Translations under genes and position numbers: made by a program
Notes under the pieces: generated by a model
Told to the model about the DNA's origin: nothing
The model's input: the letters and a program-made list of their open reading frames with translations, nothing else
Database searches by the model: none
Part shown: piece after piece, positions 1-25,061 of the stretch
Layout of the letters: the number at the start of each line of letters is the position of its first letter
Numbering within the stretch: the first letter of the stretch is position 1
NCBI RefSeq assembly: GCF_018446385.1
Contig: NC_055990.1
Coordinates: forward strand, 27,613,891 to 27,677,890
DNA: 64,000 nucleotides
Direction: 5' to 3'
From: Zingiber officinale
Taxonomy: Eukaryota > Streptophyta > Magnoliopsida > Zingiberales > Zingiberaceae

Positions 1-8
1 GCAGGATC

Positions 9-851: not shown

Positions 852-1195
852 TACCAACTATTAATTTTATTTGTCAAAAAGTTAGGTTGACAAGATAATA
901 AAATTAATGGGTTAAAACCCTCCTTTTTCAAATGTTGAATTTGTATACGTCCACACTAACGTGGCATGCAAAATTCACGGTATTTGAGGTGTTGGAGAAT
1001 TTAAATAATATTGTTTGAGGAATCAATATTTTTTTATTCAAAAGTTTTTGACCAAATATTTGATCAAAGACAGATCAACTATTAATTTTATTTCGTCATA
1101 AAGTAAAGTTGACGAGATAATAAAATTAATGAATAAAATCTCCTCTTCGATTTTGTATACGTCCACACTATCGTGGCATACAAAATTCATGGGGA
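852..1195 (+). repeat. Two diverged copies of a segment of about 120 bp
   Basis: The stretch at about 852-980 and the one at about 1077-1195 share the same order of words (caactattaattttattt, gacaagataataaaattaat, gtatacgtccacacta, gtggcat). They lie upstream of the protease-like part of the decayed copia element. No coding function is visible. Confidence 0.6.
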
Positions 1196-4100: not shown

Positions 4101-4396
4101 TCTCAAGATAGACTTAGATATGATTTCTAGTTTGTCCAAAGATTATTACAATTTATTGTAATAATAATGGTGCAGTAACAAACTCGAAGAAACCATGAGT
4201 CTATAAGGCAAGTAAACACAATAGAGCGCAAGTACTACCCAATACGAGAAATTGTATAAAGAGGAGAAGTGGTTGCCGCCTAGATTGCATCAGATGATAA
4301 CCTAAGATCCTTAAGGCAAGAGCTTTTTGAAAGGCATGGGAATCAGATGTATGGCAGCAGATAAGGCAGCTTAGTCTTTTAGTATAAGTGGGAGAT

Positions 4397-4528
4397 TGTT
4401 AGAATGTATACTAAAAGCCTAGCTTTTGGTATAAAACATTTATCTAGAAATAAGAATCACATTGGTCAAATGTCTACATTTGTGATAAATGTAGTTGTTC
4501 AATTAATTTATACTGTAAATAACATAGT
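4397..4528 (+). repeat. 3' LTR of the decayed copia element, segment 1 of 3
   Basis: The segment starts tgttagaatgtatac directly after the polypurine tract. It is cut by gag-only element A, whose 5-bp target atagt is 4524-4528. Confidence 0.85.
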
Positions 4529-5086
4529 TGTTAGGATCGTTCGTACTCGGCTAGAGAGGGGGGGGGTGTGAATAGCCGCCCCAAATCGTCGCGTTTCTTT
4601 CTACAAACTAGGGTTAGCGCAGCGGAAATAAGAACAAGAAACGAAAACAAGAAGATCAAACCTCAACGCGTCGATGTAACGAGGTTCGGAGATAAACTCC
4701 TACTCCTCGGCGTGTCCGTAAGGTGGACGAGCTCTATCAATCCGTCGGTGGATGAGTCCCCGGAGAACCGGCTAATACAATATACTCCTTCTGGGTGGAG
4801 AAACCTCGCCACAATGTTTCTTGCACAAGCAAGATAGGAGTACAACAGATACAAGAAAGCAAAAGACAATATGAAACACTTGCTTGCCTTTCTTGTTGAC
4901 TGGAGTGATGAAGCAGCAGCTTCACACCAGCAGCAGCTGATGAGAATCCAGTCGAGAAGCTCACGCGAAGCTTCAGCTGCGAGGAGCTCAGCAAAGCTCT
5001 GATGGCAGGTAAGAGCAGAAGCTCTAGAGCACAAGAACAGAAGTTCTAAGGAGGAAGCAATAGCAGCAACGAAACCCTGTAGCGTC

Positions 5087-5093
5087 TTTTATA
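5087..5093 (-). promoter_or_regulatory. TATA box, 3' LTR of element A
   Basis: The minus strand reads TATAAAA followed by gacgct. It sits about 60 bp downstream of the dyad array, and the same arrangement occurs in the other LTR at 10302-10308. Confidence 0.7.
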
Positions 5094-5148
5094 CCTGCGA
5101 AGAAAAACATGAAGGAATCTAGCCGTTGCGTCGCAACGGCTAGTTCCC

Positions 5149-5490
5149 TGATCGGTCCACAGACCGATCAGGAGTGTGCCTGATCGGTCCACAGACCGAT
5201 CAGCGCTTTCTCCCGAACTTCGCTAGCTACTGATCGGCTGACCGATCAGGATATCGCCTGATCGGGCCCCTGATCGATCAGTAAGCTCCCAGAATCGATG
5301 GGACCGATCAGATACACAAGCGTGTCACTGGATCGGTCTGGTGACCGATCCAGAGCTTGGTTTTTGCCCAAACCAGGTCCCGGACGTCCAAGCTTACAGA
5401 ATCTATCCGTGCCTTCGTTTGTCATCCGATCGGTCAGCAGACCGATCAAATACATAAGAGTATCACTGGATCGGTCTGCAGACCGATCGA
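5149..5490. repeat. Dyad array, 3' LTR of A (about 8 units)
   Basis: The array holds about eight imperfect palindromes of the form gatcggtc-N3-5-gaccgatc spaced 20-40 bp apart. It lies immediately upstream of the TATA box in element orientation. Confidence 0.85.
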
Positions 5491-5560
5491 GCTTGATTTT
5501 GCCCAAACCAAGTCCCAAACCTTCCAAACCAATATCCGATCAACCTTGACCTATTGGTAC

Positions 5561-6253
5561 ATCATGCTTAGCATCCGGTCACTCCCTTGACCTGCTAAGA
5601 CTCCCCACCAAGTGTCCGGTCAATTCCTTTGACCCACTTGGACTTTCCTCTTCGTGCCAAGTATCCGATCACTCCCTTGATCTACTTGGACTTCCCAACA
5701 CCAGATGTCCGATCACCCTTGATCCATCTGGATTTTCCCTTGCCCGGCTTCACTCACCAGGAGTTCCACACTGCCTAACATCCCAGTTAGGACTTTCTCA
5801 CTGCCTGGCTTCACTCACCAGGACTTTCACACTGCCTAACATCCCAGTTAGGACTTTCTCACTGCCTGGCTTCACTCACCGGGACTTTCCAACTGCCTAA
5901 CATCCCAGTTAGGACTTTCCCACTGCCTGGCTTCACTCACCAGGACTTTCCACACTGCCTAACATCCCAGTTAGGACTTTCCCACTGCCTGGCTTCACTC
6001 ACCAGGACTTTCCACACTGCCTAACATCCCAGTTAGGACTTTCCCACTGCCTAGCTCCACTCACCAGGACTTTCCACCTGCCTAACATCCCAGTTAGGAC
6101 TTTCCCTCGTGCCAAGCTCCCTGCTTGGACTTCTCCGTGCCAAGTCTCCATACTTGGACTTTTCCAGTGCCAAGTCTCCATACTTGGACTTTTCCCGTGC
6201 CAAGTTTCCGTACTTGGACTTTTCGCGTGCCAAGCTCCCTGCTTGGACTTTTC
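5561..6253 (-). repeat. Chain of short inverted repeats, 3' LTR of A
   Basis: Repeated units of about 30-60 bp each carry a short stem and a 6-9 nt loop separated by ggactttcc. The stem types are CCTGG/CCAGG, CCTAAC/GTTAGG and CCAAG/CTTGG. The middle part (5740-6070) is a near-perfect tandem repeat of the CCTGG and CCTAAC units. Confidence 0.85.
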
Positions 6254-6433
6254 CCGAATCAGATCAACCAGGTCAACCTTGACCTAAGGTTGCACCTACA
6301 ATCTCCCAAACACCTATTCTTGTCAAACATCAAGAATACAACTCTCTTCTTGTCAAACATCAAAACACAACTCGAGTCAGGTCAACTCGAGTTAGATTAA
6401 CCAGGTCAACCTTGACCTAAGGTTGCACCAACA

Positions 6434-6446
6434 ATCTCCCCCTTTT
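6434..6446 (-). other. Polypurine tract of element A
   Basis: The minus strand reads aaaaagggggagat directly before the 3' LTR terminus, as needed for plus-strand priming. Confidence 0.8.
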
Positions 6447-8214
6447 TGATGTTTGACAAAATCCAAAATCAAGTTAGGTTAACCCGATGTTCTTCCTTGA
6501 ACATTCTTCCAAAACCTACACTCTCCCCCTTTGGACATCTCTCCCCCTTTTTGACACACATCAAAAAGAGGGAATCAAGGTCAAGAGTTTCTTCCTAATG
6601 AAAGTCCCATACCTTTCATTGAAACCCTTAATTTCCCCCTTGAAACTAAATTCAACAATCAATTAGTGATAATCCCACATCACTCAAGTCTTTAGGAGTA
6701 AAAACTCCCCCTAAGAGTCAACTCCCCTTGACAATTAGGTAAAAACTCCCCCTAAAGATCAACTCCCCCTTGACCATTGCACCAACAATGTCTTGGAGAG
6801 TTTCAAACCTTTAGAAACCTGAAACTCAACTCCCAAAAAACTGAAATTTCAGACATCCAGTCGAATTTTCAGCACATTGGCACGCTATCAGACCTCACTG
6901 GATCGGTCACTAGACCGATCCACAGCACTCTGGATCGGTCCTGTGACCGATCCAGCCCTCCCTAGATCGGTCCCCAGACCGATCCAACCTTTCCTGGATC
7001 GGTCCAGTGACCGATCCAGCCTTGGACAGACTCGAGTTCTGATTTCCTTCTCCCGAAATTCAGAAACTCACAACAAATTCCAGAAAATTCCAAAAATTAT
7101 GAAATTTTGAGGATACATTCCTCATAACATATACTATCAAGGAAAAATAGTTTTCTATGAAAATAACTTCCATTTTTCAATCTTGATACAAAGTTCAAAA
7201 ACTTTGAAATAGTTCAAGTTTAACTCAACTTTGTATCACAATGTTCAATGATGAATGCAATCACTAAGATGGCTTCATCAAGGTTTTCCAAATCAATTTC
7301 AAAATGATTTTAAACCTTTTAATTTAGGACCATAATCTTAGGGCCAAATGTACATGACTTGTACACAAGCTTTCCCTATGATCCTCCATTTCTTGAATTA
7401 GGCTCATCTAGGTACAAGAACTATGCACCTTGATCCTAATTCATGATCCTAATATCTCACACACATCTAAAGTGTATCAAACACATCCATGGCAATTTTG
7501 ATGTGAGATTTGGGTTTAGGTATCTTAGACTAAGGTCTCATGCATTTTCTAAACACAAATTTGATCTCAATATCAAAATGTGTTTTTCATCCTTAAATCA
7601 ATTCAATTGATTATTAATGCAAGAGATGATGACATGGCATAAAATGGTATCATAAATGAAAACATGTGCCAATGTCATGATGTCATGGCATAAAGTTTAA
7701 AACTTAAATAAACATGACATAAAAACTAGCCTAAGCATTATCATGACATTTCAAATGATAATAAAACTAAACATGATGTCATGACATGTGAGGGCAAACA
7801 ATCATGGCAAGATTTAGCATAAATAAATATACCTAGATTACCTATCTAAGTATCCTTAACCACTTGGCTAACTTCAAATTTAATCCTAGATTGCCCCAAA
7901 ATGCCAAAATCCTAATTTTGACACTTCTTGAACTCTAGATTAATTCATGCCACTTAAAGATCAAATTTAACCTCAAAACTTGGCATGTTTCATTTTTTTT
8001 TTCCGAGAGTTCTTTAGATTTTCCCAAATTGTGCCAATTGAGATTAAAAATGAAATTTCCAATCTTTAGGCACATTTAACTCTTCAAAGGAGTAAATGAT
8101 AATTCCATTTCATTTTCAAAAGTTCTCAAAACCTTGAAAATGCTCCTTGAGTGTCAATTTCCTCAAAGTTGGGTTAACTACCCTTCTAATCGGAGTTGAC
8201 ACTCTCTAACCCAT
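6447..8214 (-). other. Non-coding internal region of element A
   Basis: This 1.77-kb stretch between the gag stop and the polypurine tract has no sizeable reading frame. It contains a second dyad array (6900-7019) and long A/T-rich tracts. The corresponding stretches in B (16184-18057) and C (21191-23346) are recognisably related, so this layout is a family trait and not a chance deletion in one copy. Confidence 0.75.
6900..7019. repeat. Internal dyad array of element A (4 units)
   Basis: Four successive ggatcggtc-N4-gaccgatcc palindromes lie in the untranslated region between gag and the polypurine tract. Confidence 0.85.
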
Positions 8215-9684
8215 CTATGGGGTAGAGAAGATGCTCCTAGGAACCCAATACCTATTAGAGCTCATTGGATTCACTAAATATTCACTAGGGATAACTTCCC
8301 TAGCAACCCTCCTAATGACCCTCTTAGGCTTTAAAGCCTTGGCCATTTGGGACTCATCAAGATCAACTCTAGGGGTGACTCCCCTTGTGACCTTGGTAAT
8401 GGTCTTCCTAGCCCTAGGTTTTGTTCCATAGTCGAATGAAACATTATGATAAGTGGGCTTGACCAATTGGGACTTAGGTTTGTGACCCAAACCTTTCTTG
8501 TCCTTGGACTTGGATTGTTGACCCCTAGACCCTAGAGTCAAATCCTTAAGAGCCTTTTCTAGAGAGTCAAGTCTTGACCTCAAGACTTGATTTTCTTTCT
8601 CTAATACCTCAAGTTTTGATTTATCATTTTTCTTTGAGGTATTCCTAGGCATGTGTCTAGATGATTTGGGATTTCTATCTAGATTTTCCTTAGCCTTAGA
8701 TGAGTTAATTCTAGGGTTAGCATTTCTAGAATTGTTCTTATCTAGGCTAACATGCTTGGCTCCTAAGCACATGTATCGATTTCTAGTGTTAACATGCTTA
8801 TCAGTATTGACAATGGCAATAAGACTACTAGCATGCATCCTACTAGAATTGCAAGAATGAGTTTTAAATGTTACGTTAGGGTTTGCCTTAGCTCCCCCTT
8901 TACACGTGTTTGACCTCTTATCCTTGTGAGGTTGCCTCCCCCCTGGACATTGACTCCTATAGTGTCCCCGTTGCTTGCATTGGAAGCACACCACGTGCTT
9001 CTTGCTCTTGCATGTCGGGACTCCGGCTTCCTTGATCTTTGGCGCTGGTGAAGTCTTCTTAGTCTTCTTTGGACATTTACTCTTGTAATGTCCAAATTCC
9101 CTACACTCAAAACACATTATATGCAATTTACTTGAACTTAAAGTGTTTGAGTTACCTAGGGTTGAGGATGGATGGATGCTCTCTTCTTCATCCCTCCCGG
9201 AGGTAGAAGCTTCTTCTTCGTGCTCCGATCTTGAAGAAGACCTCACCTCCTCTTCTTCTTTAGATGTTGAGTAGCCCTCAACTTCTAATTCCTCACCTCC
9301 ACGATGTGAGCTACTTGGCTCACTAGGCTCCTCTTCATGGCTTGAAGTGGGGCTCTCCTCATGGAGTTTGGCCAAGTTGTTCCACAACTCCTTGGCATTA
9401 TTGTATCCTCCTATCTTAGACAAAATATCATTAGGTAAAGAAAATTCAATGATTTTCGTTACCTCGTCATTGATTTCGGATTGTCGGATTTGCTCTTTCG
9501 TCCACTCCTTATTCTTGATAGGTTTTCCTTCCTCATCCATCGGAGGGGAAAACCCTTCTTGTACACAAAACCAATTTAACATATTAGTCCTAAGAAAATA
9601 CATCATCCTTACCTTCCAATATGTGAAGTTGTCGTGAGACTCGTAGAAGGGTTGAATCGTGACATCTTCTCCATAGAGATCCAT
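8215..9684 (-). CDS. Copia-type Gag with two zinc knuckles (element A)
   Basis: The protein is 489 residues from the ATG at 9684. The frame stays open up to a GTG at 9744, but that upstream part is the tRNA primer site itself, so the ATG is preferred. Residues about 10-115 form the copia Gag capsid-like region (NFTYWKVRMMYFL near the start). A serine- and glutamate-rich linker (about 120-180) follows, then two CX2CX4HX4C knuckles (CFECREFGHYKSKC and CFQCKQRGHYRSQC). A basic stretch with a short coiled coil (EKENQVLRSRLDSLEKAL) leads to a tail ending WVPRSIFSTP. Gag binds element RNA and builds the particle. No protease follows. The frame looks whole. Confidence 0.85.
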   Translation of the reverse strand: MDLYGEDVTIQPFYESHDNFTYWKVRMMYFLRTNMLNWFCVQEGFSPPMDEEGKPIKNKEWTKEQIRQSEINDEVTKIIEFSLPNDILSKIGGYNNAKELWNNLAKLHEESPTSSHEEEPSEPSSSHRGGEELEVEGYSTSKEEEEVRSSSRSEHEEEASTSGRDEEESIHPSSTLGNSNTLSSSKLHIMCFECREFGHYKSKCPKKTKKTSPAPKIKEAGVPTCKSKKHVVCFQCKQRGHYRSQCPGGRQPHKDKRSNTCKGGAKANPNVTFKTHSCNSSRMHASSLIAIVNTDKHVNTRNRYMCLGAKHVSLDKNNSRNANPRINSSKAKENLDRNPKSSRHMPRNTSKKNDKSKLEVLEKENQVLRSRLDSLEKALKDLTLGSRGQQSKSKDKKGLGHKPKSQLVKPTYHNVSFDYGTKPRARKTITKVTRGVTPRVDLDESQMAKALKPKRVIRRVAREVIPSEYLVNPMSSNRYWVPRSIFSTP

Positions 9685-9731
9685 CTCTAGCCCGTGCTCC
9701 CCCGGGTGTTGATCCGTCGAAGAGTAACCTG

Positions 9732-9743
9732 GCTCTGATACCA
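9732..9743 (-). other. Primer-binding site of element A
   Basis: The minus strand reads tggtatcagagc two bases after the 5' LTR, complementary to the 3' end of initiator methionine tRNA. This primer is typical of plant copia elements. Confidence 0.85.
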
Positions 9744-10301
9744 CTTGTTAGGATCGTTCGTACTCGGCTAGAGAGGGGGGGTGTGAATAGCCGCCCCAAA
9801 TCATCGCGTTTCTTTCTACAAACTAGGGTTAGCGCAGCGGAAATAAGAACAAGAAACGAAAACAAGAAGATCAAACCTCAACGCGTCGATGTAACGAGGT
9901 TCGGAGATAAACTCCTACTCCTCGGCGTGTCCGTAAGGTGGACGAGCCCTATCAATCCGTCGGTGGATGAGTCCCCGGAGAACCGGCTAATACAATATAC
10001 TCCTTCTGGGTGGAGAAACCTCGCCACAATGTTTCTTGCACAAGCAAGATAGGAGTACAACAGATACAAGAAAGCAAAAGACAATATGAAACACTTGCTT
10101 GCCTTTCTTGTTGACAAGAGTGATGAAGCAGCAGCTTCACACCAGCAGCAGCTGACGAGAATCCAGTCGAGAAGCTCACGCGAAGCTTCAGCTGCGAGGA
10201 GCTCAGCAAAGCTCTGATGGTAGGTAAGAGCAGAAGCTCTAGAGCACAAGAACAGAAGTTCTAAGGAGGAAGCAATAGCAGCAACGAAACCCTGTAGCGT
10301 C

Positions 10302-10308
10302 TTTTATA
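10302..10308 (-). promoter_or_regulatory. TATA box, 5' LTR of element A
   Basis: TATAAAA on the minus strand, placed 56 bp downstream of the dyad array. This would be the promoter that transcribes the element. Confidence 0.7.
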
Positions 10309-10363
10309 CCTGCGAAGAAAAACATGAAGGAATCTAGCCGTTGCGTCGCAACGGCTAGTTCCC

Positions 10364-10728
10364 TGATCGGTCCACAGACCGATCAAGAGTGTGCCTGATC
10401 GGTCCACAGACCGATCAGCGCTTTCTCCCGAACCGCTGGCTGCGATCGTGCTCGATCGGTCTGGCGCCGATCGGTATACGATCGGTCCGTGACCGATCGG
10501 TATCTTTGATCGGTCCGCGATCGATCGGGGCTTATTAATCGGTTCCTCGCACTCTTGAGATGTCACGATCGGTGGCGGACCGATCGAGATATCTGATCGA
10601 TGCGGACCGATCGGGCTCCATCTTGTCGGTCCCGGCCGATCGATGCTTCCAATCGATCCGTGCCTTGTTTGTCATCGATCGGTCGGCCGATCATCAATAC
10701 ACAGATATCATCGGTCAGACCGATCGAG
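10364..10728. repeat. Dyad array, 5' LTR of A (about 10 units)
   Basis: About ten GATCGGTC-type palindromes are present, denser and more altered than in the other LTR. The first two are identical to those at 5149-5204. Confidence 0.8.
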
Positions 10729-10799
10729 CTTGGTTTTGCCCAAACCAAGTCCCAAACCTTCAAACCAATATCCGATCAACCTTGACCTATTGGTACATC

Positions 10800-11397
10800 A
10801 TGCTTAGCATCCGGTCACTCCTTGACTGCTAAGACTCCCACCAAGTGTCCGGTCAATTCCTTTGACCCACTTGGACTTTTCTCTTCGTGCAGTATCCGAT
10901 CACTCCCTTGATCACTCGATAGACTTCTCACTTGCCTAACCTCCAATCAGGATTTCCCGTTGCCTAACTTCCACTTAGGACTTTCCGTTACCTAACCTTA
11001 GTTAGGACAACTCACTAGGTAGATTTCTCACCTGCCTAACATCCAGTTAGGACTTTCTCCTAATCTACACTTAGGGCTTCCTCTTAACATCCAATTAGGA
11101 CTTTTCGCTGCCTAACCTCCAGTTATTGCTTAACCTACTAAAGGATAGAAAACACAATAGACTCAAATATCCTAGTCAAACATCTTTTCCCTTGCCTGGC
11201 TCCACTCACCAGGACTTTCCACCTGCCTAACATCCCAGTTAGGACTTTCCCTTGTGCCAAGCTCCCTGCTTGGACTTCTCCGTGCCAAGTCTTCATACTT
11301 GGACTTTTCCAGTGCCAAGTCTCCATACTTGGACTTTTCCCATGCCAAGTTTCCGTACTTGGACTTTTCGCGTGCCAAGCTCCCTGCTTGGACTTTT
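10800..11397 (-). repeat. Chain of short inverted repeats, 5' LTR of A
   Basis: The architecture matches 5561-6253, with stems such as CCTAAC/GTTAGG and CCAAG/CTTGG and ggactt spacers. The regular CCTGG/CCTAAC tandem block of the other LTR is here replaced by irregular units (10920-11130). Confidence 0.75.
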
Positions 11398-11588
11398 CCC
11401 GAATCAGGTCAACCAGGTCAACCTTGACCTAAGGTTGCACCTACAATCTCCCAAACACCTATTCTTGTCAAACATCAAGAATACAACTCTCTTCTCGTCA
11501 AACATCGTCAAACATCAAAACACAACTCGAGTCAGGTCAACTCGAGTTAGATTAACCAGGTCAACCTTGACCTAAGGTTGCACCAACA

Positions 11589-12988
11589 ATAGTATGTGGT
11601 GCCACATGCAGAAGATGATGTTATCAGTACCTTATAAATTATAAACAGTAGCTCACGACCAAAATGGAAAGGAACAAACCATTAGAAGGTCGTAGTGTAA
11701 TTAGGTATCAGTTTATCTTGACTGTATAATTACACTAGTACACTTAGAGTATATTGAGTAGGACCATTTGAGGTCGTTTCTTTTATACTGATTTTATAAA
11801 GAAACAAAGACCTCGGTTATTATGGAAGTGTGTGCTCTTAATCCTAATATAATAACAAGCACATATATTTGATATTTATTTCTTTAATTTATCAATGGGT
11901 GAGATTTAGTTCGATGAATCAATAAGCCCGATAAGTTGGGAAATGGTATCACTTATAGTGTGTGTTGTTGATTATAGAAGGAAACTGTGTCCTAGAGATA
12001 CTAGGTTGATAATGTCCTCAAGAGGAGCTCATAAGAATTGTCATGTTAAACCCTGCAGGTGGACCTAGTCCGACATGATGATAAGGTTGAGTGGTACTAC
12101 TCTTGGACTAAGATATTAATTAAATGAGTTGTCAGTAACTCACTTAATTAGTGGACATTCGATATCTTAAACACAGGGAGACTAACACACTCATAATAAG
12201 AAGGAGCCCAAAAATGTAATTTGGGATTGGTGCGGTAGTTCAATAATAGTTCTCTAGTGGAATGAATTATTATTGATAAAATTAAGTTGTGTGTTCGGGG
12301 CGAACACGGGATGCTTAATTTTATCGGGAGACCAAAACAAATTCCTCCTCTCGGTCCCTATCGTAGCCTCTTATTTATAGAGTACTATACCCACCTATAC
12401 CCACCTTCTATACCCACGAATAGGGGTCCGGCCAAGCTAGCTTGGGAACCAAGCTAGGGCCGACCTAGGTATAAATTGGGGTGGCCGGCCCTAGCTTGAA
12501 CCCAAGCTAGTGGGGGCCGGCCAAATTAAATTAAAAAAGAATTTTAATTTTAATTTTTATTATGTGGAAGAAATAATTTATTAAAGAGAATTAAAATTAA
12601 AATATCTCTCTTGTAAAAGATCTACAATAGATTAAAGAAAGAGATTAGATCTCTTTCCTTATTTGTAGATTGGTGAGATATTTTATTTTCTCTTTAAAAA
12701 TATTCACATGTTGTAAAATTAAAATTATAGAAATTTCCTTTTTATCAACCATGAAGAGATTTTGAAGAGAAATTTTATTTTTTAAAATTTCCGGAAACAA
12801 ATTAGGAAGTTTTAATTGTTGATTGAAACTTGTCCAATTTGATTTCATTAATGTGGCCGGCCATAAGATTTCAATTGGGGAAATTTTAGTTTATTTTTCT
12901 CAATTAAATCATGTCAAGGAAATTGAGAAAATTTTATTGTAATTAAATTTCCTAATTTGCCTAGGCCAAGGAATATAAAAGAAGGGGT
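11589..12988 (+). repeat. 3' LTR of the decayed copia element, segment 2 of 3
   Basis: This stretch continues the LTR after element A (its target copy atagt is 11589-11593) and runs to element B, whose target ggggt is 12984-12988. It contains GGCCGG-rich repeats (12420-12530) and A/T-rich sequence with no gene. Confidence 0.8.
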
Positions 12989-13235
12989 TGTTGGTGCAAC
13001 CTTAGGTCAAGGTTGACCTGGTTGACCCGACTCGAGTTGACGTGACTCGAGTTGTATTTTGATGTTTGACTTGGGGAGATTGTCGGTGCAACCTTAGGTC
13101 AAGGTTGACCTAGTTGTGTTGCATGTTGATGTTTGACACTCGTGAGAGAGTTCTATTCTTGATGTGGGACAAGAATAGATGTTTGGGAGATTATTGGTGC
13201 AACCGTAGGTCAGGGTTGACCTGGTTGACCTGATT

Positions 13236-13735
13236 CGGGAAAAGTCCAAGTAGGGAGCTTGGCACTGGAAAAGTCCAAGTATGGAGACTTGGCACGGAAA
13301 AGTCCAAGCAGGGAGCTTGGCACGCGAAAAGTCCAAGTATGGAGACTTGGCAAGTATGAAGACTTGGCACTGGAAAAGTCCAAGTATGGAGACTTGGCAC
13401 GGGGAAAGTCCTGTGAGTAAGGCAGTGGGAAAGTCCTAACTGGATGTTAGGCGGTTGGAAAGTCCGGTGAGTGAAGCAGTGGGAAAGTCTGGATGTTGGC
13501 GTGTGAAATCTGGTGAGTGAAGCGTGGAAAGTCTGGTGAGTAAAGCCGGCAAGGAAAATCCAGATGGATCGGGGATGATCGGACTCTGGTGTTGGAAAGT
13601 CAAGTAGGTCAAAGGTTGACGGACACTTGGCGAGGAGTTCTAGCAGTCGAGGGTGACGGATGCTAGGGATGAAGTACCAATAGGTCAAGGTTGACGGATA
13701 TTGGTTTGAAGTCTTGTGACTTGGTTTGGGCAAAA
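13236..13735 (+). repeat. Chain of short inverted repeats, 5' LTR of B
   Basis: Units of the type aaagtCCAAGTatggagACTTGG are followed by CCTAAC/GTTAGG units and then longer stems (ctagca...tgctag; accaat...attggt) that enclose a gtcaaggttgac core. Several units have shortened stems compared with element C. Confidence 0.8.
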
Positions 13736-13744
13736 ACCAAGCTC

Positions 13745-14079
13745 GGATCGGTCACGGGACCGATCGGTGATCTGTTTGCTCGATCGGTGCGGTGACCGAT
13801 CGGATCAACGAAACTCTGTTGATTCTTGTCGATGCGGTGGCCGATCAGCAACAGGCGAAAAGAAAGGTAGGCGATCGGTCCAGGCCGATCGGGCCGTATC
13901 TGATCGATGCGGGGACCGATCGGAGACGATGTCGCGAAGCACGGCCGGAGTTGGGATCGATGCGTGGACCGACCCGGTGTAACTGATCGGTCCGCAGACC
14001 GATCATGCGAAGGTTACGTGCACTAGCGTCGATGCGGGGACCCGATCGGCCGAAACTGATCGGTCCGTAGGCCGTCGGG
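13745..14079. repeat. Dyad array, 5' LTR of B
   Basis: About eight to ten GATCGGTC/GACCGATC dyads are present, many altered, ending some 40 bp before the TATA box. Confidence 0.8.
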
Positions 14080-14121
14080 GTTCTGACATAGCGGCTAGTT
14101 TCTTCATTGTCTTCTTCGCGG

Positions 14122-14127
14122 TATAAA
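14122..14127 (+). promoter_or_regulatory. TATA box, 5' LTR of B
   Basis: tataaagggg follows the dyad array. The same word and spacing recur in the 3' LTR at 19191. Confidence 0.7.
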
Positions 14128-14672
14128 GGGGTCGGGGCTGCTGCGACAACTTCTTCCTCTTCTCTTCTGCTACAGAGCTGCTGTTCTGGTGCTTGAGCTT
14201 TGTTGAGCTCTTCTTCGCAAGCTTCGCGTGAGCTTCTCGACTAGGATATCCTGCTGTTGTAGGTGTTCTGAGGAGCTGCTGCTTCAACGAAATCCAGTCG
14301 GCGAGGAGGCAAGAAAACCTGTGTTTTTACATTCATTGTTCTTGTCTTCTTGTATTTCTTGTTGTATTCCTTTCTTGCTGTTGCAAGAATATTGTGGCGA
14401 GGTTTCTCCACCCACAAGGAGTATATTGTATTAGCCGGTTTTCCGGGGACTCATCCACCGACGGATTGATAGGCTTCGTCCACCTTACGGACACGCCGAG
14501 GAGTAGGAGTTTCATTTCCGAACCTCGTTACATCCTTGTGTTAAGGTTTGGTATTCTTCCTTTCGTTTCTATTTGTATTTTCCGCTGTGCTAACAAATTG
14601 TAGGAAGAAACGAGCGATTTGGGGCGGTTATTCACACCCCCCTCTCTAGCCGAGTACGAAGGATCCTAACAA

Positions 14673-14685
14673 GTGGTATCAGAGC
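14673..14685 (+). other. Primer-binding site of element B
   Basis: tggtatcagagc starts three bases after the 5' LTR end and is complementary to initiator methionine tRNA. Confidence 0.85.
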
Positions 14686-14732
14686 GAGGCCGCTCTTCAT
14701 CGGATTCACACCCGTGGGAGCACAATCTAGAG

Positions 14733-16183
14733 ATGGATCAATTTGGAGAAGACATCACCATTCCACCCTTCTACAACGACAACTTCACATATTGGAAGGT
14801 AAGGATGATGTATTTTCTTAGGACTAATATGTGGAACTGGTTTTGTGTACAAGAAGGGTTTACTCCTCCAATGGATAAAGAAGGAGAGCCTCTAGAGAAG
14901 AACAAGTGGACGAAGGAACAAGTCCACCAATCCACGATCAACAATGAGGTAACTAAAACAATTGAATTTTCATTACCTACTAGTGTTTTGTGTAAGATAG
15001 GTAAATACAACAATGCCAAGGAGTTGTGGGATAACTTGGCCAAGTACCATGAGGAGAGCTCCACTTCAAGCCATGAAGAGGAGCCTAGTGAGCCAAGTAG
15101 CTCACATCATGGAGGGAGCGAATTGGGAGTTGAGGGCTACTCAACATCCAAGGAAGAAGAGGAGGAGAGCTCTTGTTCAAGATCGGAGCAAGAAGAGGCA
15201 TCTACCTCCGGAAGGGATGAAGAAGAAAGCTCATCTACATCCACAACCCTAGGTAACTCAAACACTGTGATTTCAAGCAAATTACACATAATGTGTTTTG
15301 AGTGTAGGAAGTTTGGGCACTACAAGAGTAAGTGTCCAAAGAGGGTTAGAAAGACTCCACCGGCGCCAAAGATCAAGGAAGTCGGAGTCCCAACACGCAA
15401 GGGCAAGGAGCACGTGGTGTGCTTCCAATGCAAGCGAAGGGGACATTATCGGAGTCAATGTCCAAGGACAAGAGACCGAGCACGTCGATAGGGGGAGCTA
15501 AGGCAAACCCTAAGGTAACATTTAAGGCACACTCTTGCAATAATAATAAGACTCATGCTAGTAGTTTTATTGCAATTGTCAAGAATGATAAGCATGATAA
15601 TTCTAGGAACCAATATATGTGCTTAGGTGCCAAAGATGTTAGTCTAGATAAGGATAACACTAGGAAAGCCAACCCTAGGATTAACTCATCTAAGGTTAAG
15701 GGAAACCTAGATAGAAATCCCAAATCATCTAGACATATGCCTAGGAATACCTCAAAGAAAAATGAAAAATTAAAAATTGAGGTATTAGAGAAGGAGAATC
15801 AAGTCTTGAGGTCAAGACTTGATACTTTGGAAAAGGCTCTTAAGAACTTGGAGAAGTCATCTCTAGGGTTTAAGGGTCAAAAACCAATGTCCAAGGACAA
15901 GAAAGGTTTGAGTCACAAACCTAAGTCCCAAATGGTCAAGCCCACATATCATGATGTTCCATTCGATTATGGAACAAAACCTAGGGCTAGGAAGACCAAC
16001 ACCAAGGTCACAAGGGGAGTCACCCCTAGAGTTGATCTTGATGAGTCCCAAATGGCCAAGGCTTTAAAGCCTAAGAGGGTCATTAGGAGGGTTGCTAGGG
16101 AAGTTATCCCTAGTGAATATTTAGTGAACCCAATGAGCTCAAGTAGGTATTGGGTTCCTAGGAGCATTTTCTCTACCCCATAG
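14733..16183 (+). pseudogene. Copia-type gag of element B, broken
   Basis: The region begins MDQFGEDITIPPF at the first ATG after the primer site and ends WVPRSIFSTP. It is the counterpart of the gag in A and shows the capsid-like part, the acidic linker, both CCHC knuckles, the coiled coil and the basic tail. It carries about one break. No pol sequence follows. Confidence 0.85.
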
Positions 16184-18069
16184 ATGGGTTAGAGAGTGTC
16201 AACTCCAATAAGAGGGGTAGTTAACCCAACTTTGAGGAAATTGACACTCAAGGAGCATTTTCAAGGTTTTGATAACCTTTGAAAATGAAAAAGAATTATT
16301 ATTTACTCCTTAAAGAGTAAATTGTGCCATATTTGAAAAATATCGATTTCAATCTTATTTGGCACAATTTAAGAAAACCTAGAGAAATACCATAATTGGG
16401 ATTTTGGTTTTCTCTAAGGGATATATGGGCAATCTAGGGTTAGATTCTAAGTTAGCTAAGGCTAAGGATACTTAGATAGGGAATTTAGGCATTTTATTTG
16501 TGCTAACTTCCCATGATTGGTTGCCATATGCCATGCCATGACATCATACTTATTTTATTATCATTTGAAATGTCATGATAATGCTTAGGTTATCTATATG
16601 TCATGTGTTAGTTTCGTTTCAAACTTTATGCCATGACATCATGACATTGGCACATGTTTTCATTTATGTTATTTATTTATGCCATGTCATCATCTCTTGC
16701 ATTAAGAATCAATGAAATTGATTTAAGGATAAAAACACATTTTGGTATTGAGATCAAAGTGTAGTTTAGAAAATGCATGAGAACTTAGCCTAAGTTGACC
16801 TTAACCCATATCTCACATCAAATTGACTTGAATGTGGTTTGATACACCTTAGATGTGTGTGAGATATTAGGATCATGAGTTAGGATCAAGGTGCATAGTT
16901 TTTGTACCTAGATGAGCCTAATTCAAGAAAAGGAGGATCATAGGGAAAGCTTGTGTACAAGTCATGTACATATAGCCCTAAGATTGTGGTCCCAAATTAA
17001 AGGGTTTGAAATCATTTCAAAATTGTTTTGAAAAACCTTGATGAAGCTTTCCTAGTGATAGCATTCATCATTGAACATTGTGATACAAAGTTGACTTAAC
17101 TTTGAATTATTTCAAAGTTTTTGAATTTTGTATCAAGATTTGAAAATGGAAGTTATTCTCATAGAAAACTATTTTTCCATGATAGTATATGTTATGAGGA
17201 ATGTATCCTCAAAATTTCACATTTTTTCGAATTTTCTGGAATTTTTTTGGAGTTTCTGAATTTCCGGGAAGGGAAATCAGAAATCTCTGATTTCAGAGTG
17301 TGGATCGGTCACCGGACCGATCCAGGGAAGTTCTGATCGGTCCGGTGACCGATCGGTGACGATCCAGTGCGATCGTGAGCGTGGATCGGTGCGGGGACCG
17401 ATCCGAGGATTCGATCGATGCGGGACCGATCGATGCGTGCGGTTTCGATTTTTCATTTGTTGGTGCGAAATTTCAGGTGGAAGTTGGGTTTTGTGGATTT
17501 CTAAGGTTTGGAACTCTCAAAGACATTGTTGGTGCAATGGTCAAGGGGAGTTGACCTCTAGGGGAGTCTTACCTAATTGTCAAGAGGAGTTGACTTTTAG
17601 GGGAGTTTGTACTCCTTAAGACTCTTGAGGATTAGTGATATGGGATTATCACTAAGTTGATTGTTGAGTTTAGTATCAAGGGAAATTAAGAGTTTCAATG
17701 AAAGGTATGGGACTTTCATTGGGAAGAAACTCTTGACCTTGATACTTCTTTTTCCTTTTGATGTATGTCAAAAAGGGAGAGTATTCATTGGAGAATTATT
17801 GGAGAACCCAAGTTAGGTTATCGGGTTAACCTAAGCTAGGAAAGAATGTCAAGGAATGTTCAAGGAAGAACATTGGAATTCTTTTGATGTGTGTCAAGGG
17901 GAGAATTATTGGAGAGCCCAAGTTAGGTTATTGGGTTAACCTAAGGGAGAATGTCCAGAGAATGTTCAAGGAAAGAACATTGGACATTGGAAGATGATTG
18001 AAAACCTAAGTTAGGTTATCGGGTTAACCTAACTTGATTATGGTTTTGTCAAACATCAAAAAGGGAGAT
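16184..18069 (+). other. Non-coding internal region of element B
   Basis: No sizeable frame occurs here. The stretch matches the antisense of 6434-8214 in A, contains a dyad array (17302-17434) and ends in the polypurine tract (aaaaagggagat, up to 18069). Confidence 0.75.
17302..17434. repeat. Internal dyad array of element B
   Basis: Four or five GATCGGTC-type dyads lie in the same position as in A, about 0.6 kb before the polypurine tract. Confidence 0.8.
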
Positions 18070-19739
18070 TGTTGGTGCAACCTTAGGTCAAGGTTGACCT
18101 GGTTGACCCGACTCGAGTTGGCGTGACTCGAGTTGTATTTTGATGTTTGACTTGGGAGATTGTCGGTGCAACCTTAGGTCGAGGTTGACCTAGTTGTGTT
18201 GCATGTTGATGTTTGACACTCGTGAGAGAGTTCTATTCTTGATGTGGGACAAGAATAGATGTTTGGGAGATTATTGGTGCAATAGTGGGGTTGACGTTGA
18301 CTTGGACAGGAAAAGTCCAAGTAGGGAGCTTGGCTGGAAAAGTCCAAGTATGGAGACTTGGCGCGGAAAAGCAGGAGCTTGGCACGCGAAAAGTCCAAGT
18401 ATGGAGACTTGGCAAGTATGAAGACTCGGGAAAAGTCAAGTATGGAGACTTGGCGGGGAAAGTCCCAGTGGAGCAGGCGGTGGGAAAGTCCTAACTGGGA
18501 TGTTAGGCGGTTGGAAAGTCCTGGTGAGTGAAGCCGGTGGTGGGAAAGTCCTAACTGGGATGTTAGGCGGTGTGGAAATCTGGTGAGTGAAGCGGTGGAA
18601 AGTCCGGTGAGTAAAGCGGGCAAGGAAAATCCGGATGGATCGGGGATGATCGGACTTCGGTGTTGGAAAGTCAAGTAGGTCAAAGGTTGACCGGACACTT
18701 GGCGAGGAGTTCTAGCAGTCAAGGGAGTGACCGGATGCTAGGGATGAAGTACCAATAGGTCAAGGTTGACCGGATATTGGTTTGAAGTCTTGGGACTTGG
18801 TTTGGGCAAAACCAAGCTCGGATCGGTCACCGACCGATCCGGTGATCTGTTTGCTACGATCGGTCGGTGACCGATCGATCAACGAAACTCTGTTCGATTC
18901 TTGATCGATCGGTGACCGATCGCAACAGGCGAAAAGAAAGGTAGGTGATCGGTCCGCGGGCCGTCGGCCATCTGATCGGTGCGGGGCGATCGGAGGCGAT
19001 GTCGCGGAAGCACGGCCGAGTTGGGATCGATGCGTGGACCGACCAGTGCTGATCGGTCCAGGCCGATCGAATGCCTGAAGGTTACGTGCACTAAGCGTCG
19101 ATGCGGGGACCGATCGGCCCTGATCGGTCCGTAGGCCGATCGGTCTAGCGTTTGACATAGCGGCTAGTTTCTTCATTGTCTTCTTCGCGGTATAAAGGGG
19201 TGAGGCTGCTGGCTGCGACAACTTCTTCCTCTTCTCTTCTGCTACTGAGCTGCTGTTACGGTGCTTGAGCTTTGTTGAGCTCTTCTTCACTTCGCGTGAG
19301 CTTCTCGACTAGGATATCCTGCTGTTGTAGGTGTTCTGAGGAGCTGCTGCTTCAACGAAATCCAGTCGGCGAGGAGGCAAGAAAACCTGTGTTTTTACAT
19401 TCATTGTTCTTGTCTTCTTGTATTTCTTGTTGTATTCCTTTCTTGCTGTTGCAAGAATATTGTGGCGAGGTTTCTCCACCCACAAGGAGTATATTGTATT
19501 AGCCGGTTTTCCGGGGACTCATCCACCGACGGATTGATAGGCTTCGTCCACCTTACGGACACGCCGAGGAGTAGGAGTTTCATCTCCGAACCTCGTTACA
19601 TCCTTGTGTTAAGGTTTGGTATTCTTCCTTTCGTTTCTATTTGTATTTTCCGCTGTGCTAACAAATTGTAGGAAGAAACGAGCGATTTGGGGCGGCTATT
19701 CACACCCCCCTCTTTAGCCGAGTACGAAGGATCCTAACA
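18070..19739 (+). repeat. 3' LTR of gag-only element B
   Basis: This 1670-bp LTR directly follows the polypurine tract. It has three terminus-like starts near 18070, 18164 and 18273, as in the 5' LTR, a hairpin chain (18305-18815), a dyad array (18820-19143), a TATA box (19191-19196) and R/U5. Confidence 0.85.
18820..19143. repeat. Dyad array, 3' LTR of B
   Basis: GATCGGTC/GACCGATC dyads end about 50 bp before tataaagggg. The unit order matches the 5' LTR but several units differ. Confidence 0.8.
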
Positions 19740-20633
19740 GGGGTGAGGGTGCTTTCATTGAATAACCTCTATTATTTTCTCTCCCTCTTTTGTTCCTTGG
19801 TGTGGCCGGCCATCCTTTCCCTCTCTTCCTCTTGTGGTGGCCGAACCCCTCTCTTTCCTTGGAGCTCTTGTGGTGGCCGGATACTACTTGGAGAAGAAGA
19901 AGAAGAAGGAGAGGAAGCGAGCATCTCTTGGAGCTTGGTTAGTGTTTTGATTTTCTTCCTTGGTGAAGCTTCTTTCTTTGTGGCCGAACCTAGCTAGGAG
20001 GAGAAGAAGGTGGTTGGTGGTTTCTCATCTCGGAAGATCGTTGCCCACACAACGTCCGAGGTTAGAAGAGGAATACGATAGAAGATCAAGAGGTCTTTCT
20101 AGAAGGTATAACTAGTAGTTTTTCCTTTTCCGCATCATACTAGTTATTTATGGAAATAATACCAAATACAAGAGGCTTACGTTCTAGTATTTCGAATATG
20201 TTTTTTCGATGTTGTGTTCTTTTGTTTTATTTATCCTTGTGATTTGATTTTTCTTTTCGGTTAACCTAAAGTTATTTTAGGAAATTAAATATTAGCTTTC
20301 TATAAAAGGTTTTGTCTAGTCGGTGATGGTTGCTCCCATATCCAAGAAGGCCATGTGCCTCGCCATGTCATTACTGGGAACCAATTATGGAAATTAATAT
20401 TTAATGGAATTAATAACTTAAGGTGATTTGGGTCGAACGTGTTAAGTTCCGCAGGAGACCCAAGTCAAAACCTAAAAGAACGAATAGATTAAGTTTTGGA
20501 TCAAACGTGTTAAGTTCCGCAGGCGATCCAAAATTTAATTTAAAAGAACACATGGTAGCTAGGAAAAGGTTCAGACCTTTGTACAAAATTTTTGTACAGT
20601 GGAACCTCTAGGTTTTCCGAGTAGCAACCAACA
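19740..20633 (+). repeat. 3' LTR of the decayed copia element, segment 3 of 3
   Basis: This is the last LTR segment after element B, starting with the target copy ggggt and ending caaccaaca. It includes purine-rich stretches (19888-19920) and two copies of a cgtgttaagttccgcagg motif (20439, 20506). No gene is present. Confidence 0.8.
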
Positions 20634-21190
20634 GTTATAAGCCTAGAAATAAAAATGCTCAAGGATTTAATGAAAAATCTAAGGTTGAGGAGTTATGGAG
20701 AGAAAATCAAGTCTTGAGGTCAAGACTTGATAAATTAGAGAGGACTCTTAGAAAAATCACAAATAATACACAAGGGTCAAAGAGTCAAAACCTAGGTCTA
20801 GGAGGACAAAAACCATCCAATGGTTATAGAGGTTTGGGATACAAACCTAAAACCAAAAAGAATGTGCCTTCTTACCATAGAGTTCTATATAGTTATGGAA
20901 CTAACCCTAGGCTTAGTGGTCAAGTTAAAAATACAAGGGAAGTTATCCCTAGAAGTATATTTGCAACAACAAACATGACTAAGACTTCTAAGAAGTCTAA
21001 GAAAGTCACAAAGAAGGTCACAAGGGAAGAAATCCCTAGAGTTGACCTAGAAAAGATGATCAAGGGCTCTAAGAAGCCTAACAAGGTCACTAGGAAGGTA
21101 TCTAGGGAAGTTATCCCTAGTGAATACCTAGAGCATCCAAGGAGCACCAATAGGTTTTGGGTTCCTAGGAGCATTTTCTCTACCCCTTAG
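20634..21190 (+). pseudogene. Gag C-terminal part of element C
   Basis: The remnant starts in mid-gag where the copia LTR ends and includes the coiled-coil segment (ENQVLRSRLDKLERTL) and the basic tail. The tail has repeated motifs of the form TREVIPR, TREEIPRVDL and SREVIPSEYL and ends WVPRSIFSTP, as in A and B. The N-terminal half and the zinc knuckles are not in this window. Confidence 0.8.
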
Positions 21191-23346
21191 ATGGATTAGA
21201 GAGTGTCAATTTCGATTAGAAGGGTAGTTAACCTAACTTTGATGAAGTTGACACTCAAAGAGCATTTTTAAGGTTATTGTTAACCTTTGAAAATGAAAAG
21301 GATTTTGATTTACTCTTGAAATGAGTAAAATTACCATGAATTGAGAAAATTGATTTTAAATTAAATTGGCATAAGTGAGAGAATCGTAAAAAAATGTCAA
21401 GTTGGGATTTTGGCATTTTATTGGGAAGTTAAAGGAAAATCTAAGCCTTATTTTAATTTGTTACTCTTTAAAAGAGTAATCTGTGCCAAAATTTGAGGAA
21501 TATGCTTAATTTATATTGGCACAATGTAGGAAAAGCAAAGGAAATGTCAAAATTGGGTGTTGACATTTTCTTGGGAAATATTGGGCAATCTAGGTTTAAA
21601 CTCTAAGTCAGCTAAGGCTTTAGGATACTTATATAGGTAACCTAGGTATATTTTATTTATGCTAAAATTTGTCATGCTTTGTTTACCCATCATATGTCAT
21701 GACATCATATTTATTCTTGCACTCATGGCTTATTATGAAAAACATTAAAATACCATGTCATGTCATATATACATCATATAGTCATAAGAAATTTTCTTTT
21801 GAAAATTATTTATCTTTGATGTATGCCATAACATATCATGCATTATGTTTAATTCCTCGTAATTAAGGACAAATGACATTTATTAACAAATAACATCCTT
21901 GGTGGTTGTTCCTAATCTCAAAATGCCTAGATAGATATGCATGATCCCTAGATTAGAGCAAAACCAAACTTTACATCTCATAAAAGAACTATAAGATGAC
22001 TTGTATGTGTTAGTGCACATTAGATACAAGTGAGATGTTAGGATGATGAACAAAACTCAATATGTTGATTTAGTGTATTCTTTTGAGTTTTAAGTTCATC
22101 AAAACACATAGGTATGTATTTTTCAATCATTGGGAAAGCTAATGTACAAGTCATGTGCATTGAGCCCAAAGAACATTCTTGGATATTGGTTTTGAAAATC
22201 ATTTAAAATGCTTTTAGAAAACCTTGATGAAGACTATCTTTTGATAGTAATCATCATTGAAATGTTAGACACAAACTAGAAGAAAACACTAAAGTTTTTA
22301 CAAGTTTTCAAATTTATGTCAATCTTGGAAAATAGAAAGTATTTTCATAGAAAACTATTTTTCCTTGATATTATATCCCCTAAGTAGTGTCTACATGAAT
22401 TTTCACAATTTTTAGAATTTTGTAGAATTTTTGGGGAGTTTCTGAAGTTGACTGAAATGGAATTTCAGTAATTTTAAAGCTTCAATCGATCACCCGATCG
22501 ATTGGAGTGCCTCAATCGATCGAGCGATCGATTGAGAAGGCATTTCTCACGAGCAGAAGCTCGCTGGATCGATCCACCGATCGATCCACACTAGCTGAAT
22601 CGATCGGTGGATCGATTCAAGCAGGTTCAATCGATTGGGGATGCTGATTTTGGTTGGGAAAGCTTGTTTTTAGCATTCTAAATCATTTTTAGTCTATAAA
22701 ATCATTCCTAACCCCTTGGAACACATTTTCACTCATTTAGGGGGAGTTTTTATAAAAAACTAGGATGGATTGGTTGAGGAAGACTAAGTAGAGGTTTAGG
22801 TTGGGGTTTGGTTTCAATATGGACTTTTTGAACCTTAAAACTTCTAAATTTGGGTTTCCTAAATATTTAGGAGTTTCAAGTCATTGTTAGTGCAATGACA
22901 GAAATTACGTGCATGTCTTTAGGGGGAGTTACTTTTTAAGGACATGAAAATTTATTTTTCATACACCTTGCAAGGTGGTTAATCTTCTTTCGTGAAAATG
23001 CTCAAGGTTGGGTATTTGAATACAATGGAGAGTGGATATCTTCATTGTTCAAGTGGTAATGCTCAAGGGTGAGCATTAAGGAAAATGAAAGGTATGGGAC
23101 TTTCATTATCCTGTTGTGAGCCACGAGTGAAGTTGTGAACAACGTTGGGTAACTCTTCAAGGGGAGAGTTTTTTATGTATGCCAATAGGGGGAGAATGTG
23201 CGGTTAAGTTAGGCCTTCATTACCTAAAGAGGGAGTTTGCCCTCTAGGAAAGGGGGAGAATGAAGGAAACCATCATTCATACATTGGCATGAAGGAAGTT
23301 GAGGCTATGAGATTAGCTTAACTTAAAGGAGGTATTGTCAAACATC
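21191..23346 (+). other. Non-coding internal region of element C
   Basis: No gene is present. The layout matches A and B: A/T-rich sequence, then a dyad array at 22483-22640, then purine-rich gggggag stretches before the polypurine tract. Confidence 0.7.
22483..22640. repeat. Internal dyad array of element C
   Basis: Four full dyads and one half of the type caatcgatc-N3-gatcgattg or ggatcgatc-N3-gatcgatcc are present. The position equals that of the arrays in A and B, but the arm sequence is different. Confidence 0.85.
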
Positions 23347-23544
23347 AAAAAGGAGGAGATTGTTGGTGCAATATTCCCTAGGTCAAGGTTGACCTGGTTG
23401 ACTGAGCTTGAATTGGGTCAAGCTTGAGTCTTGATGTTTGGATTTTGATATTTGACAATACGTGGAGACAAGACATGGAGATTGTAGGCAATTGTTCATG
23501 TGAGGAGATTATGAAGAAGAGTCAAGTAGGTCAAGGTTGACTGG

Positions 23545-24190
23545 ATACTTGACTAGAAATTCCTGGTGAGAGAAGACAGGTGAAAGTCCTAATTGGGAGG
23601 TTAGGCAGACTAGAAAGTCCTAGTGAGTGAAGCCAGGCAAGTGTGAAAAATCCTGGTGAGTGAAGCCAGGCAAGTGTGAAAAATCCTGGTGAGTGAAGCC
23701 AGGTGGAAAGTCCTAGTGAGTGAAGCTAGGTAGAAGAAAATCCTGGTGAGTGAAGCAGGTGAAAGACCTAATGAGTGAAGCTAGGTAGAAGAAAATCCTG
23801 GTGAGTGAAGTCAGGTGAAAGTCCTAGTGAGTGAAGCTAGGCAGTAAGGAAAGTCCTAGTGAGTGAAGTCAGACAGAGGAGAAGTCCTAGTGAGTGAAGC
23901 TAGGCAGAAGGGAAGTCCTTGTGAGTGAAGCCAGGCAAGGAAAATCCAGATGGATCAAGGTTGATCGGACATCTGGTGTTGGGAAGTCTAAGTAGGTCAA
24001 AGGGATTGACCGAATACTTGGCACGAGAAAATCCAGATGGGTCAAGGTTGACCAGACATCTGGTGAAAGTCTAAGTGGGTCAAAGGGATTGACCGGACAC
24101 TTGATGAGGGAGTCCTAGCAGGTCAAGGGTGACCGGATGCTAGGCATGATGAACCAACAGGTCATGGTTGATCGGATGTTGGTGTAGGGG
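23545..24190 (+). repeat. Chain of short inverted repeats with covarying stems, LTR of C
   Basis: About seventeen units occur. Short ones have the loop tgagtgaag with stems CCTGG/CCAGG (for example 23652-23670) or CCTAG/CTAGG (23712-23730). Longer ones enclose an inner GGTCA/TGACC or GATCAA/TTGATC dyad (for example CCAGATG 23946-23952 with CATCTGG 23970-23976). This is the best-preserved chain in the window. Confidence 0.85.
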
Positions 24191-24224
24191 ACTTTAGACT
24201 TATTTTTAGGCAAAAATAGGAGCT

Positions 24225-24552
24225 GAATCGATCAGCCGATCGATTAGCTCATGCCCAATCGATCGGCTGATCGATTGGGTGAGTCCCCGCGACAAGGCTC
24301 CTCCCAATCAATCAGTGGATTGATTGGGGAGAAGTGTCGTGCGAATAGAAAGCCTCCCAATCGATCGACCGATTGATTAGGAGCCTCCAATCGATCGGGC
24401 AATTGATTGGGAGCTGCGATTTTACGCTATAAGCCCTAGATCGATCAGCCGATCGATCCAGGCAATTCCCAGGAGCACAGAGGCGCTCTGGATCGATCAG
24501 TCGATCGATCCAAAGCCTCCCCAATCGATTGGGTGCAATCCGATCGATTGGG
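24225..24552. repeat. Dyad array, LTR of C (8 units)
   Basis: Eight dyads of the type aatcgatc-N3-gatcgatt or ggatcgatc-N3-gatcgatcc end just upstream of a TATA-like sequence. Confidence 0.85.
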
Positions 24553-25061
24553 ATTTGACCGTTGGCGCAGGATATAACTGTTAGCGAGCATTTCCCACAG
24601 CACGACTTCCTCTCTTCTCCACAGGCGATCACATCAAACCTCCATAGCGATCTTTTCTTCCTCACCGCCAGTTATTGAAGGTTCTTGAAGGCTCATCCAA
24701 GTCAAGAGGCGAGTTGCAATAAGAAGAAGAAGAAGCTAGGGTTTTCATTGTAATCTTGTAAGATTTATTTGTATTTTGCTTCTTTCTTTCTCATTGTTGT
24801 ATTGTGAGGTTGTAAGGCTTCTCCGCCTTTGATAGTTACCGAGAAGGAGTGTTTTCATAATGGAGGGTGCGTGAGTGTGTGGATCCTTGGTTTAGTCACC
24901 TCTTGTTGAGGTGGGTACCAAGTAAATCCTAGAGTTAGCGTTGTGTGTTTGTTTCTTTGTATTTTTCGCTGCATATCTTTGAAGAAACAAGCAACGACGA
25001 GCACGAGATCGCGCCGAGCTATTCATCCTCCACCCCTCTAGCTCCATTTTTGGTCCCAACA

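Follow-up and report, generated by a model that had tools for sequence, protein, structure and literature searches.

Results

Three gag-only elements and their surroundings

Three LTR elements, designated A, B and C, lie in the window, which is the whole stretch of 64,000 nt that was analyzed, and these three make up the family sample. Their features are listed in Table 1; the LTRs are referred to as A5, A3, B5, B3 and C3. Element C extends from about 20640 to 25061 on the plus strand, and its 5' LTR is absent from the window. The zinc knuckle of the A gag was detected with an E value of 4.9e-6. In Pfam comparisons, the B gag gave a copia-gag match below the cutoff (16.2 bits, cutoff 27), the A gag gave no copia-gag match, and the gag end of C gave no match of any kind. 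No homologue of the A gag was found at E ≤0.001 among 7992 scored candidates. An ORF scan for frames of at least 100 amino acids found no pol or env frame in the three internal regions; the sense frames of this size were gag, except for a 119-aa stop-to-stop frame running across the dyads of B. The LTR patterns gave 0 matches in the viral and prokaryote collections viral_contigs and genome_contigs.

Table 1. Positions of the elements and their dyad clusters in the window
Feature	Position	Strand	Remarks
Element A	4529-11588	-	both LTRs; TSD ATAGT (4524-4528 and 11589-11593)
A 3' LTR	4529-6433	-	1905 bp; array-bearing U3 at about 5097-6433
A 3' LTR GATC (RM) cluster	5150-5488	-	7 dyads, last 56 bp from TATA
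A 3' LTR class II dyads	5528-5731	-	5 units; inverted G[AG]TCA/TGA[CT]C within covarying outer stem
A 3' LTR class I dyads, AGTCC..GGC	5773-6249	-	16 units, about 30 bp apart
A linker	6434-8213	-	six AGGGGGAG polypurine octamers within about 340 bp of 3' LTR
A internal (linker) cluster	6901-7016	-	four GATC dyads, 32-bp period
A gag ORF	8215-9744	-	509 aa from tool-assigned GTG start; CCHC zinc knuckle
A 5' LTR	9746-11588	-	TSD ATAGT at 11589-11593
A 5' LTR GATC cluster	10365-10729	-	10 dyads, mixed quality
Element B	12989-19739	+	both LTRs; TSD GGGGT (12984-12988 and 19740-19744)
B 5' LTR	12989-14671	+	TSD GGGGT at 12984-12988
B 5' LTR GATC cluster	13746-14065	+	7 dyads, mixed quality
B gag	14673-16183	+	two overlapping ORFs, frame broken; CCHC in first
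B internal cluster	17303-17431	+	four GATC dyads
B 3' LTR	18070-19739	+	TSD GGGGT at 19740-19744
B 3' LTR GATC cluster	18821-19141	+	7 dyads, mixed quality
C internal, gag 3' part and linker	20640-23360	+	5' part missing, left limit approximate
C internal cluster	22484-22617	+	four dyads RATCGATC-N4-GATCGATY
C 3' LTR	23361-25061	+	
C LTR dyad cluster	24226-24549	+	8 dyads

As judged by eye, A is harbored by an apparent decayed copia remnant (1-4528 and 11589-12988), and B is embedded in another repeat (19740-20639 region) the flanks of which have GGCCGGCC-rich sequence in common. A separate copia-like element with LTRs of about 335 bp, a TSD of AGCCG and an 864-aa ORF occupies 51997-60031; each of its LTRs contains two perfect dyads between its start and a TATA-like box.

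GATC dyad arrays

The GATC dyads were defined by the pattern RATCGRTC-N3..6-GAYCGATY with at most 3 mismatches in 16 positions. This pattern was matched 11 times in A5 and 9 times in each of A3, B5, B3 and C3. Some of these matches (1, 2, 2, 2 and 1 in A5, A3, B5, B3 and C3, respectively) are units of the class II type described below, and their removal leaves 10, 7, 7, 7 and 8 dyads. In 100 dinucleotide shuffles of each LTR, the mean was 0.13 to 0.31 matches and the maximum 3, far below the observed counts, and a chance origin was therefore rejected. In the 43.5 kb outside the elements, 10 matches were obtained on the plus strand, all with 2 to 3 mismatches, and 10 on the other strand.

The earlier note had counted about 8 to 10 palindromes in each of the five LTRs, and these numbers agree with that count. 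Its view that the subfamilies use different arms while retaining symmetry, number and place was likewise upheld. It had placed the end of the array some 40 to 60 bp from the TATA box, which is correct for A and B (56 bp in A5, A3 and B5 and 49 bp in B3); the distance for C is 24 bp, a value that depends on an uncertain choice of TATA, with another TATAA lying inside the C array. The suggested spacing of 20 to 40 bp was only partly right, as start-to-start distances ranged from 26 to 122 bp. A 3-bp spacer had been assigned to C, but 7 of its 9 LTR matches and all four internal dyads have N4, the remaining two LTR matches having N6. Across A3, the A and C internal clusters and the C LTR, the spacer is 4 bp in 22 of 23 dyads, and it varies from 3 to 6 bp in A5 and B, where the arms of several A5, B5 and B3 dyads pair at only 4 to 6 of 8 positions. 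Nor are the dyads, which the note placed in the LTRs, restricted to these: each internal region carries four more. In 200-bp windows, the CpG observed/expected ratio over the GATC arrays was 0.94 to 1.66 in all five LTRs, compared to 0.09 to 0.59 (A3) and 0.00 to 0.29 (C3) in U3 windows starting before position 600.

Further dyad classes and overall dyad density

Two further classes of dyad were found in U3. The class I unit has the form AGTCC-arm-loop-arm-GGC and gave 42 matches over the five LTRs. The class II unit consists of an outer stem with inner sequences of the GGTCAA/TTGACC type and GGA at one side, and gave 15 anchor matches. The inverted TTGACC of the class II units is the W-box core of WRKY factors. 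Counted on both strands, TTGAC[CT] occurs 9 to 16 times per U3 against 1.0 to 1.3 in mononucleotide shuffles and 0 to 1 times per R-U5, an excess that may reflect the repeats carrying the motif.

Perfect dyads (arm of at least 8 bp, loop of 3 to 10) reached 4.1 to 7.2 per kb in the U3 regions, where shuffled totals were 0 to 0.2 per region, and 3.9 to 6.9 per kb in the linkers (0.4 to 0.6 in shuffles), and fell to 1.3 to 2.0 in the gag parts. There were 0 in the R-U5 of C and of both LTRs of A, and none are listed for those of B. With the arm threshold lowered to 6 bp, a setting for which there is no control, the A3 U3 (1336 bp) holds 28 non-overlapping stems. Other retroelements in the window were also enriched, with 1.55 perfect dyads per kb in the copia remnant and 1.74 in an element labeled copia D. 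Unlike these, the gene stretch at 31001-51700 is near the shuffled level (0.24 per kb against about 0.15 in shuffles, or 5 against 3.0 short perfect inverted repeats).

Covariation of the arms

Arm pairing was tested in units located by anchors that exclude the tested bases, with no hand choice of the 29 GATC units. Pairing was found at 147 of 168 positions for class I (shuffled mean, 89.6), at 83 of 90 for class II (50.3), and at 95 of 116 outer bases for the GATC units (69.2), none of which was reached in any of 5000 shuffles. The unit alignments gave the same picture. Covariation was 0.472 in class I (0.229 shuffled), 0.497 in class II (0.245 shuffled, with double changes in 7 of 7 outer pairs) and 0.377 in the GATC units (0.207 shuffled), with 0 of 500 shuffles as high in each class; these fractions are not probabilities, because the units of an array are relatives, and the shuffles leave that relatedness in place. 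Less notable was how many pairs had changed at both positions, which 50 (class II), 261 (class I) and 25 (GATC) of 500 shuffles equaled, and the counts of pair types did not exceed the shuffles in the three classes (261, 397 and 399 of 500 as high for class II, class I and GATC, respectively).

The alignments covered all 15 anchor matches of class II plus 2 units added by hand, 17 distinct units out of the 42 class I matches, and 26 of the 51 GATC dyads. The GATC percentages lean high because mostly clean dyads were taken in; those omitted were 8 of 10 in A5, 2 of 7 in A3, 5 of 7 in B5, 7 of 7 in B3, 1 of 8 in C3 and 2 of 4 in the B internal cluster. The anchor test on the GATC units agrees with their alignment. 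The earlier note had looked to independent change of the arms across copies as evidence against function. Run here between array units instead of genome copies, the comparison showed no such independence in any class. Deamination alone was rejected as the source of the arm changes, as transversions occur in classes I and II. A single sequence-specific homodimer for all dyads was also rejected, as the arms differ between units.

Relationship to Sireviruses

The GATC arrays were compared to the "RM boxes" described in the LTRs of 13 Sireviruses by Bousios et al. (2010; PMC2829016). According to the passages of that paper drawn on here, RM boxes are high-copy dyad palindromes, present in at least 8 copies per element, which cluster upstream of the TATA box and again in the linker, and their CpG island ends on average 37 bp before the TATA. 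The arrays of A, B and C share these features: many-copy dyad palindromes, clusters in both LTR and linker, and a CpG island that precedes the TATA. The RM core is CGG-CCG in 12 of the 13 elements, and the core of A and B is common to the RMs of Osr10 (CGGTCTGACCG), Osr8 (CGGTCAGACCG) and Barbara (TCGGTCYCACCGA), while the C arms resemble the RM of the one exception, Tnd-1 (ACAATCGATTGT) (PMC2829016). Differences from the published boxes were also noted. The arms here are longer (8 to 11 bp), the spacer is usually N4, and the U3 regions have the two further dyad classes, which were not found in the portion of PMC2829016 covered. In that source, linker boxes were present in the 9 env-bearing elements and absent from the 4 env-less ones, a correlation and no definition. 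The elements A, B and C are gag-only and do not follow it, since each of the three linkers has four boxes and no linker ORF of at least 100 aa.

The other noncoding hallmarks of Sireviruses were examined as well. The junction of the 5' LTR and primer binding site has the Sirevirus form, CA followed by A(T/G)TGG-TATCAGAGC, in both A and B (CA followed by AGTGGTATCAGAGC; in A, AGTGG-TATCAGAGC). The terminal polypurine tract, with the octamer AGGGGGAG starting 10 bp before the 3' LTR and AT joined to TG at the boundary, is strictly present only in A. In C it is AGGAGGAG, with one substitution, and in B the AT-TG boundary is kept and the octamer is AAAGGGAG, with two differences. Of upstream copies of AGGGGGAG in the linker, A has 6 and C has 4, all exact, and B has 0 exact and four with 1 mismatch. 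Inverted repeats flanking the polypurine tract, for which there is no chance control, gave exact matches of 16 bp in A (LTR position 68, abutting the tract) and of 13 bp (position 136) and 12 bp (position 70) in B, also abutting; in C, where the feature is weak, the exact matches are of 11 and 10 bp, offset by 8 and 2. A polyC-rich integrase signal near the LTR 3' end was identified by eye (CACCCCCC..CTCTAG in A and B, CCTCCACCCCTCTAG in C). Thus, A matches every noncoding hallmark tested, and deviations were found for B and C at the terminal polypurine tract, for B in its upstream copies and for C in the inverted repeat. The genus is defined by reverse transcriptase phylogeny, and no pol ORF of at least 100 aa was seen in A, B or C on which to base one. 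TR-GAG elements, which are defined by structure and not as Sireviruses, likewise have LTRs and gag without pol. A large gag protein bearing a CCHC knuckle and a coiled coil is another Sirevirus trait; the A gag has the CCHC knuckle and, at 509 aa, is shorter than the average of 660 aa given for Sireviruses in PMC2829016. Palindromes with predicted hairpins are also described for the LTR cis-region of maize Copia Sireviruses (CACCGGACNNNGTCCGGTG; Bousios et al., 2016, by way of passages in PMC10760457), although their arm sequence is unlike that of A, B or C. A full-text literature search gave no mention of the four unit strings, and for the 8-mers the listed matches were unrelated by title.

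Discussion

The most probable interpretation, to which we assign a probability of about 0.8, is that A, B and C derive from Sireviruses (Ty1/copia) as gag-only elements and that their arrays are RM boxes, which would serve as a redundant enhancer whose transcripts also face silencing. With many symmetric sites near the promoter, enhancer activity would be redundant, the sites presumably being bound by dimeric host DNA-binding proteins, and the W-box cores of class II make WRKY factors candidate readers. The same symmetry would allow transcripts of the array region to fold, which may expose them to small-RNA silencing, with siRNAs directed at the arrays. Sites in DNA are favored by the place of the arrays beside the TATA box, by the CpG island, and by the class II W-box cores. 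A homodimer with a fixed half-site would not account for outer arm positions that vary from unit to unit while agreeing inside each one.

Several alternatives were weighed against this interpretation. The arrays stand out within each LTR pair: those of A differ by 1.1% and 1.0% outside the arrays and by 25.5% inside (23 gap events), and those of B by 0.9% and 2.7% outside and 12.4% inside (26 gap events), the inside values being alignment-dependent. Either fast evolution or conversion, that is, hypervariability, or assembly error would account for this divergence. For A5, B5 and B3, errors of assembly or consensus may explain part of the array sequence, although this is somewhat improbable. 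These three LTRs have fewer CCWGG sites per U3 (4, 3 and 3, respectively, compared to 12 in A3 and 12 in C3) and more CpG, but the same dyads are clean in A3, in C3 and in the A and C internal clusters, and B variants such as GATGCGGGGACC recur, as judged by eye. Palindrome regions of maize Sireviruses are said, by Bousios in 2016, to be hotspots of sequence evolution, and this was counted against the error reading. It is A3, C3 and the internal clusters that carry most of the weight in our conclusions. A more doubtful proposal is that the symmetry arose by mutation and not by selection, one arm being rewritten from the other when the template is switched, either in DNA prone to hairpins or in the course of reverse transcription. 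The richness of the other retroelements in perfect inverted repeats relative to genes is consistent with this, as are multi-base arm differences with matching partners; yet such dyads are missing from the R-U5 of the five LTRs, a region that the same reverse transcriptase copies. The mechanism is that of PMC8794818, the covered text of which makes no mention of reverse transcription or transposition, so the extension to retroelements is our own. A further idea, which we regard as quite improbable, is that U3 from the LTR start to the TATA box is a near-continuous string of dyads in which pairing and not sequence is inherited. With the LTRs of one copy differing by 12 to 25%, the string would be re-made at each insertion, perhaps when the reverse transcriptase switches templates.

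It also seems unlikely that what maintains the dyads is hairpin formation in the genomic RNA, serving its packaging or its binding by Gag, and not a function as DNA sites. Such a role would fit the presence of dyads in both linker and U3, which lie in the 3' part of that RNA, and the concentration of perfect dyads there, with fewer in the gag parts and genes and none in R-U5. The covarying arms, which include transversions (classes I and II), point the same way, the inner parts of class II being nearly fixed. Mismatch cells in the three unit alignments were G.T in 38 cases and A.C in 13 in the sense strand (74.7 and 49.3 expected if the arms were independent), and in 14 and 3 cases, respectively, in the A and C linkers; when each column state was counted once, however, the numbers were 14 and 11, and the G.T excess was weak against shuffles and absent in A5 and the C U3. 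Against such a role, when the A3 U3 was folded whole, more than 0.4 of the bases were paired internally in 1 of 16 class I, 2 of 5 class II and 1 of 5 GATC units in the sense strand, but in 6 of 16, 5 of 5 and 3 of 5 in the antisense strand. For C, GATC units formed locally more often in sense (3 of 6 against 1 of 6), whereas class II units did so in 3 of 6 in sense and 6 of 6 in antisense, and mean folding z-scores were lower in antisense for 5 of 5 U3 regions. The R-U5 of B also has a mean z near -2. In internal-region stems outside the GATC dyads, clear covariation was not found; double-changed pairs still pairing numbered 2 of 8, 4 of 7, 11 of 18, 21 of 39, 13 of 23 and 13 of 28 in the six directed comparisons among A, B and C. 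As a separate observation, the internal regions over their full length (6434-9745, 14672-18069 and 20640-23360), and not just at the dyad clusters, fold with greater stability than shuffled sequence (mean z of about -2.1 to -2.5, compared to -0.06 for genes).

With RM boxes as the preferred assignment, the status of the arrays changes. The earlier note knew of no described LTR enhancer of this form, but the arrays correspond to what received the name RM boxes in 2010, and the covered text of PMC2829016 reports no common factor and no functional experiment for these. Relative to that text, the boxes in linkers that have no env ORF, the two extra U3 dyad classes and the covariation of arms within a class go further; classes I and II or the covariation may be in print elsewhere. 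Three additions are testable: boxes occur in linkers even where no env ORF is seen, arms covary inside one and the same array, and the arrays have diverged much more than the remaining parts of their LTR pairs. If there is indeed selection on symmetry, the comparison of unit with unit within one LTR would provide a cheap test of covariation for any Sirevirus.
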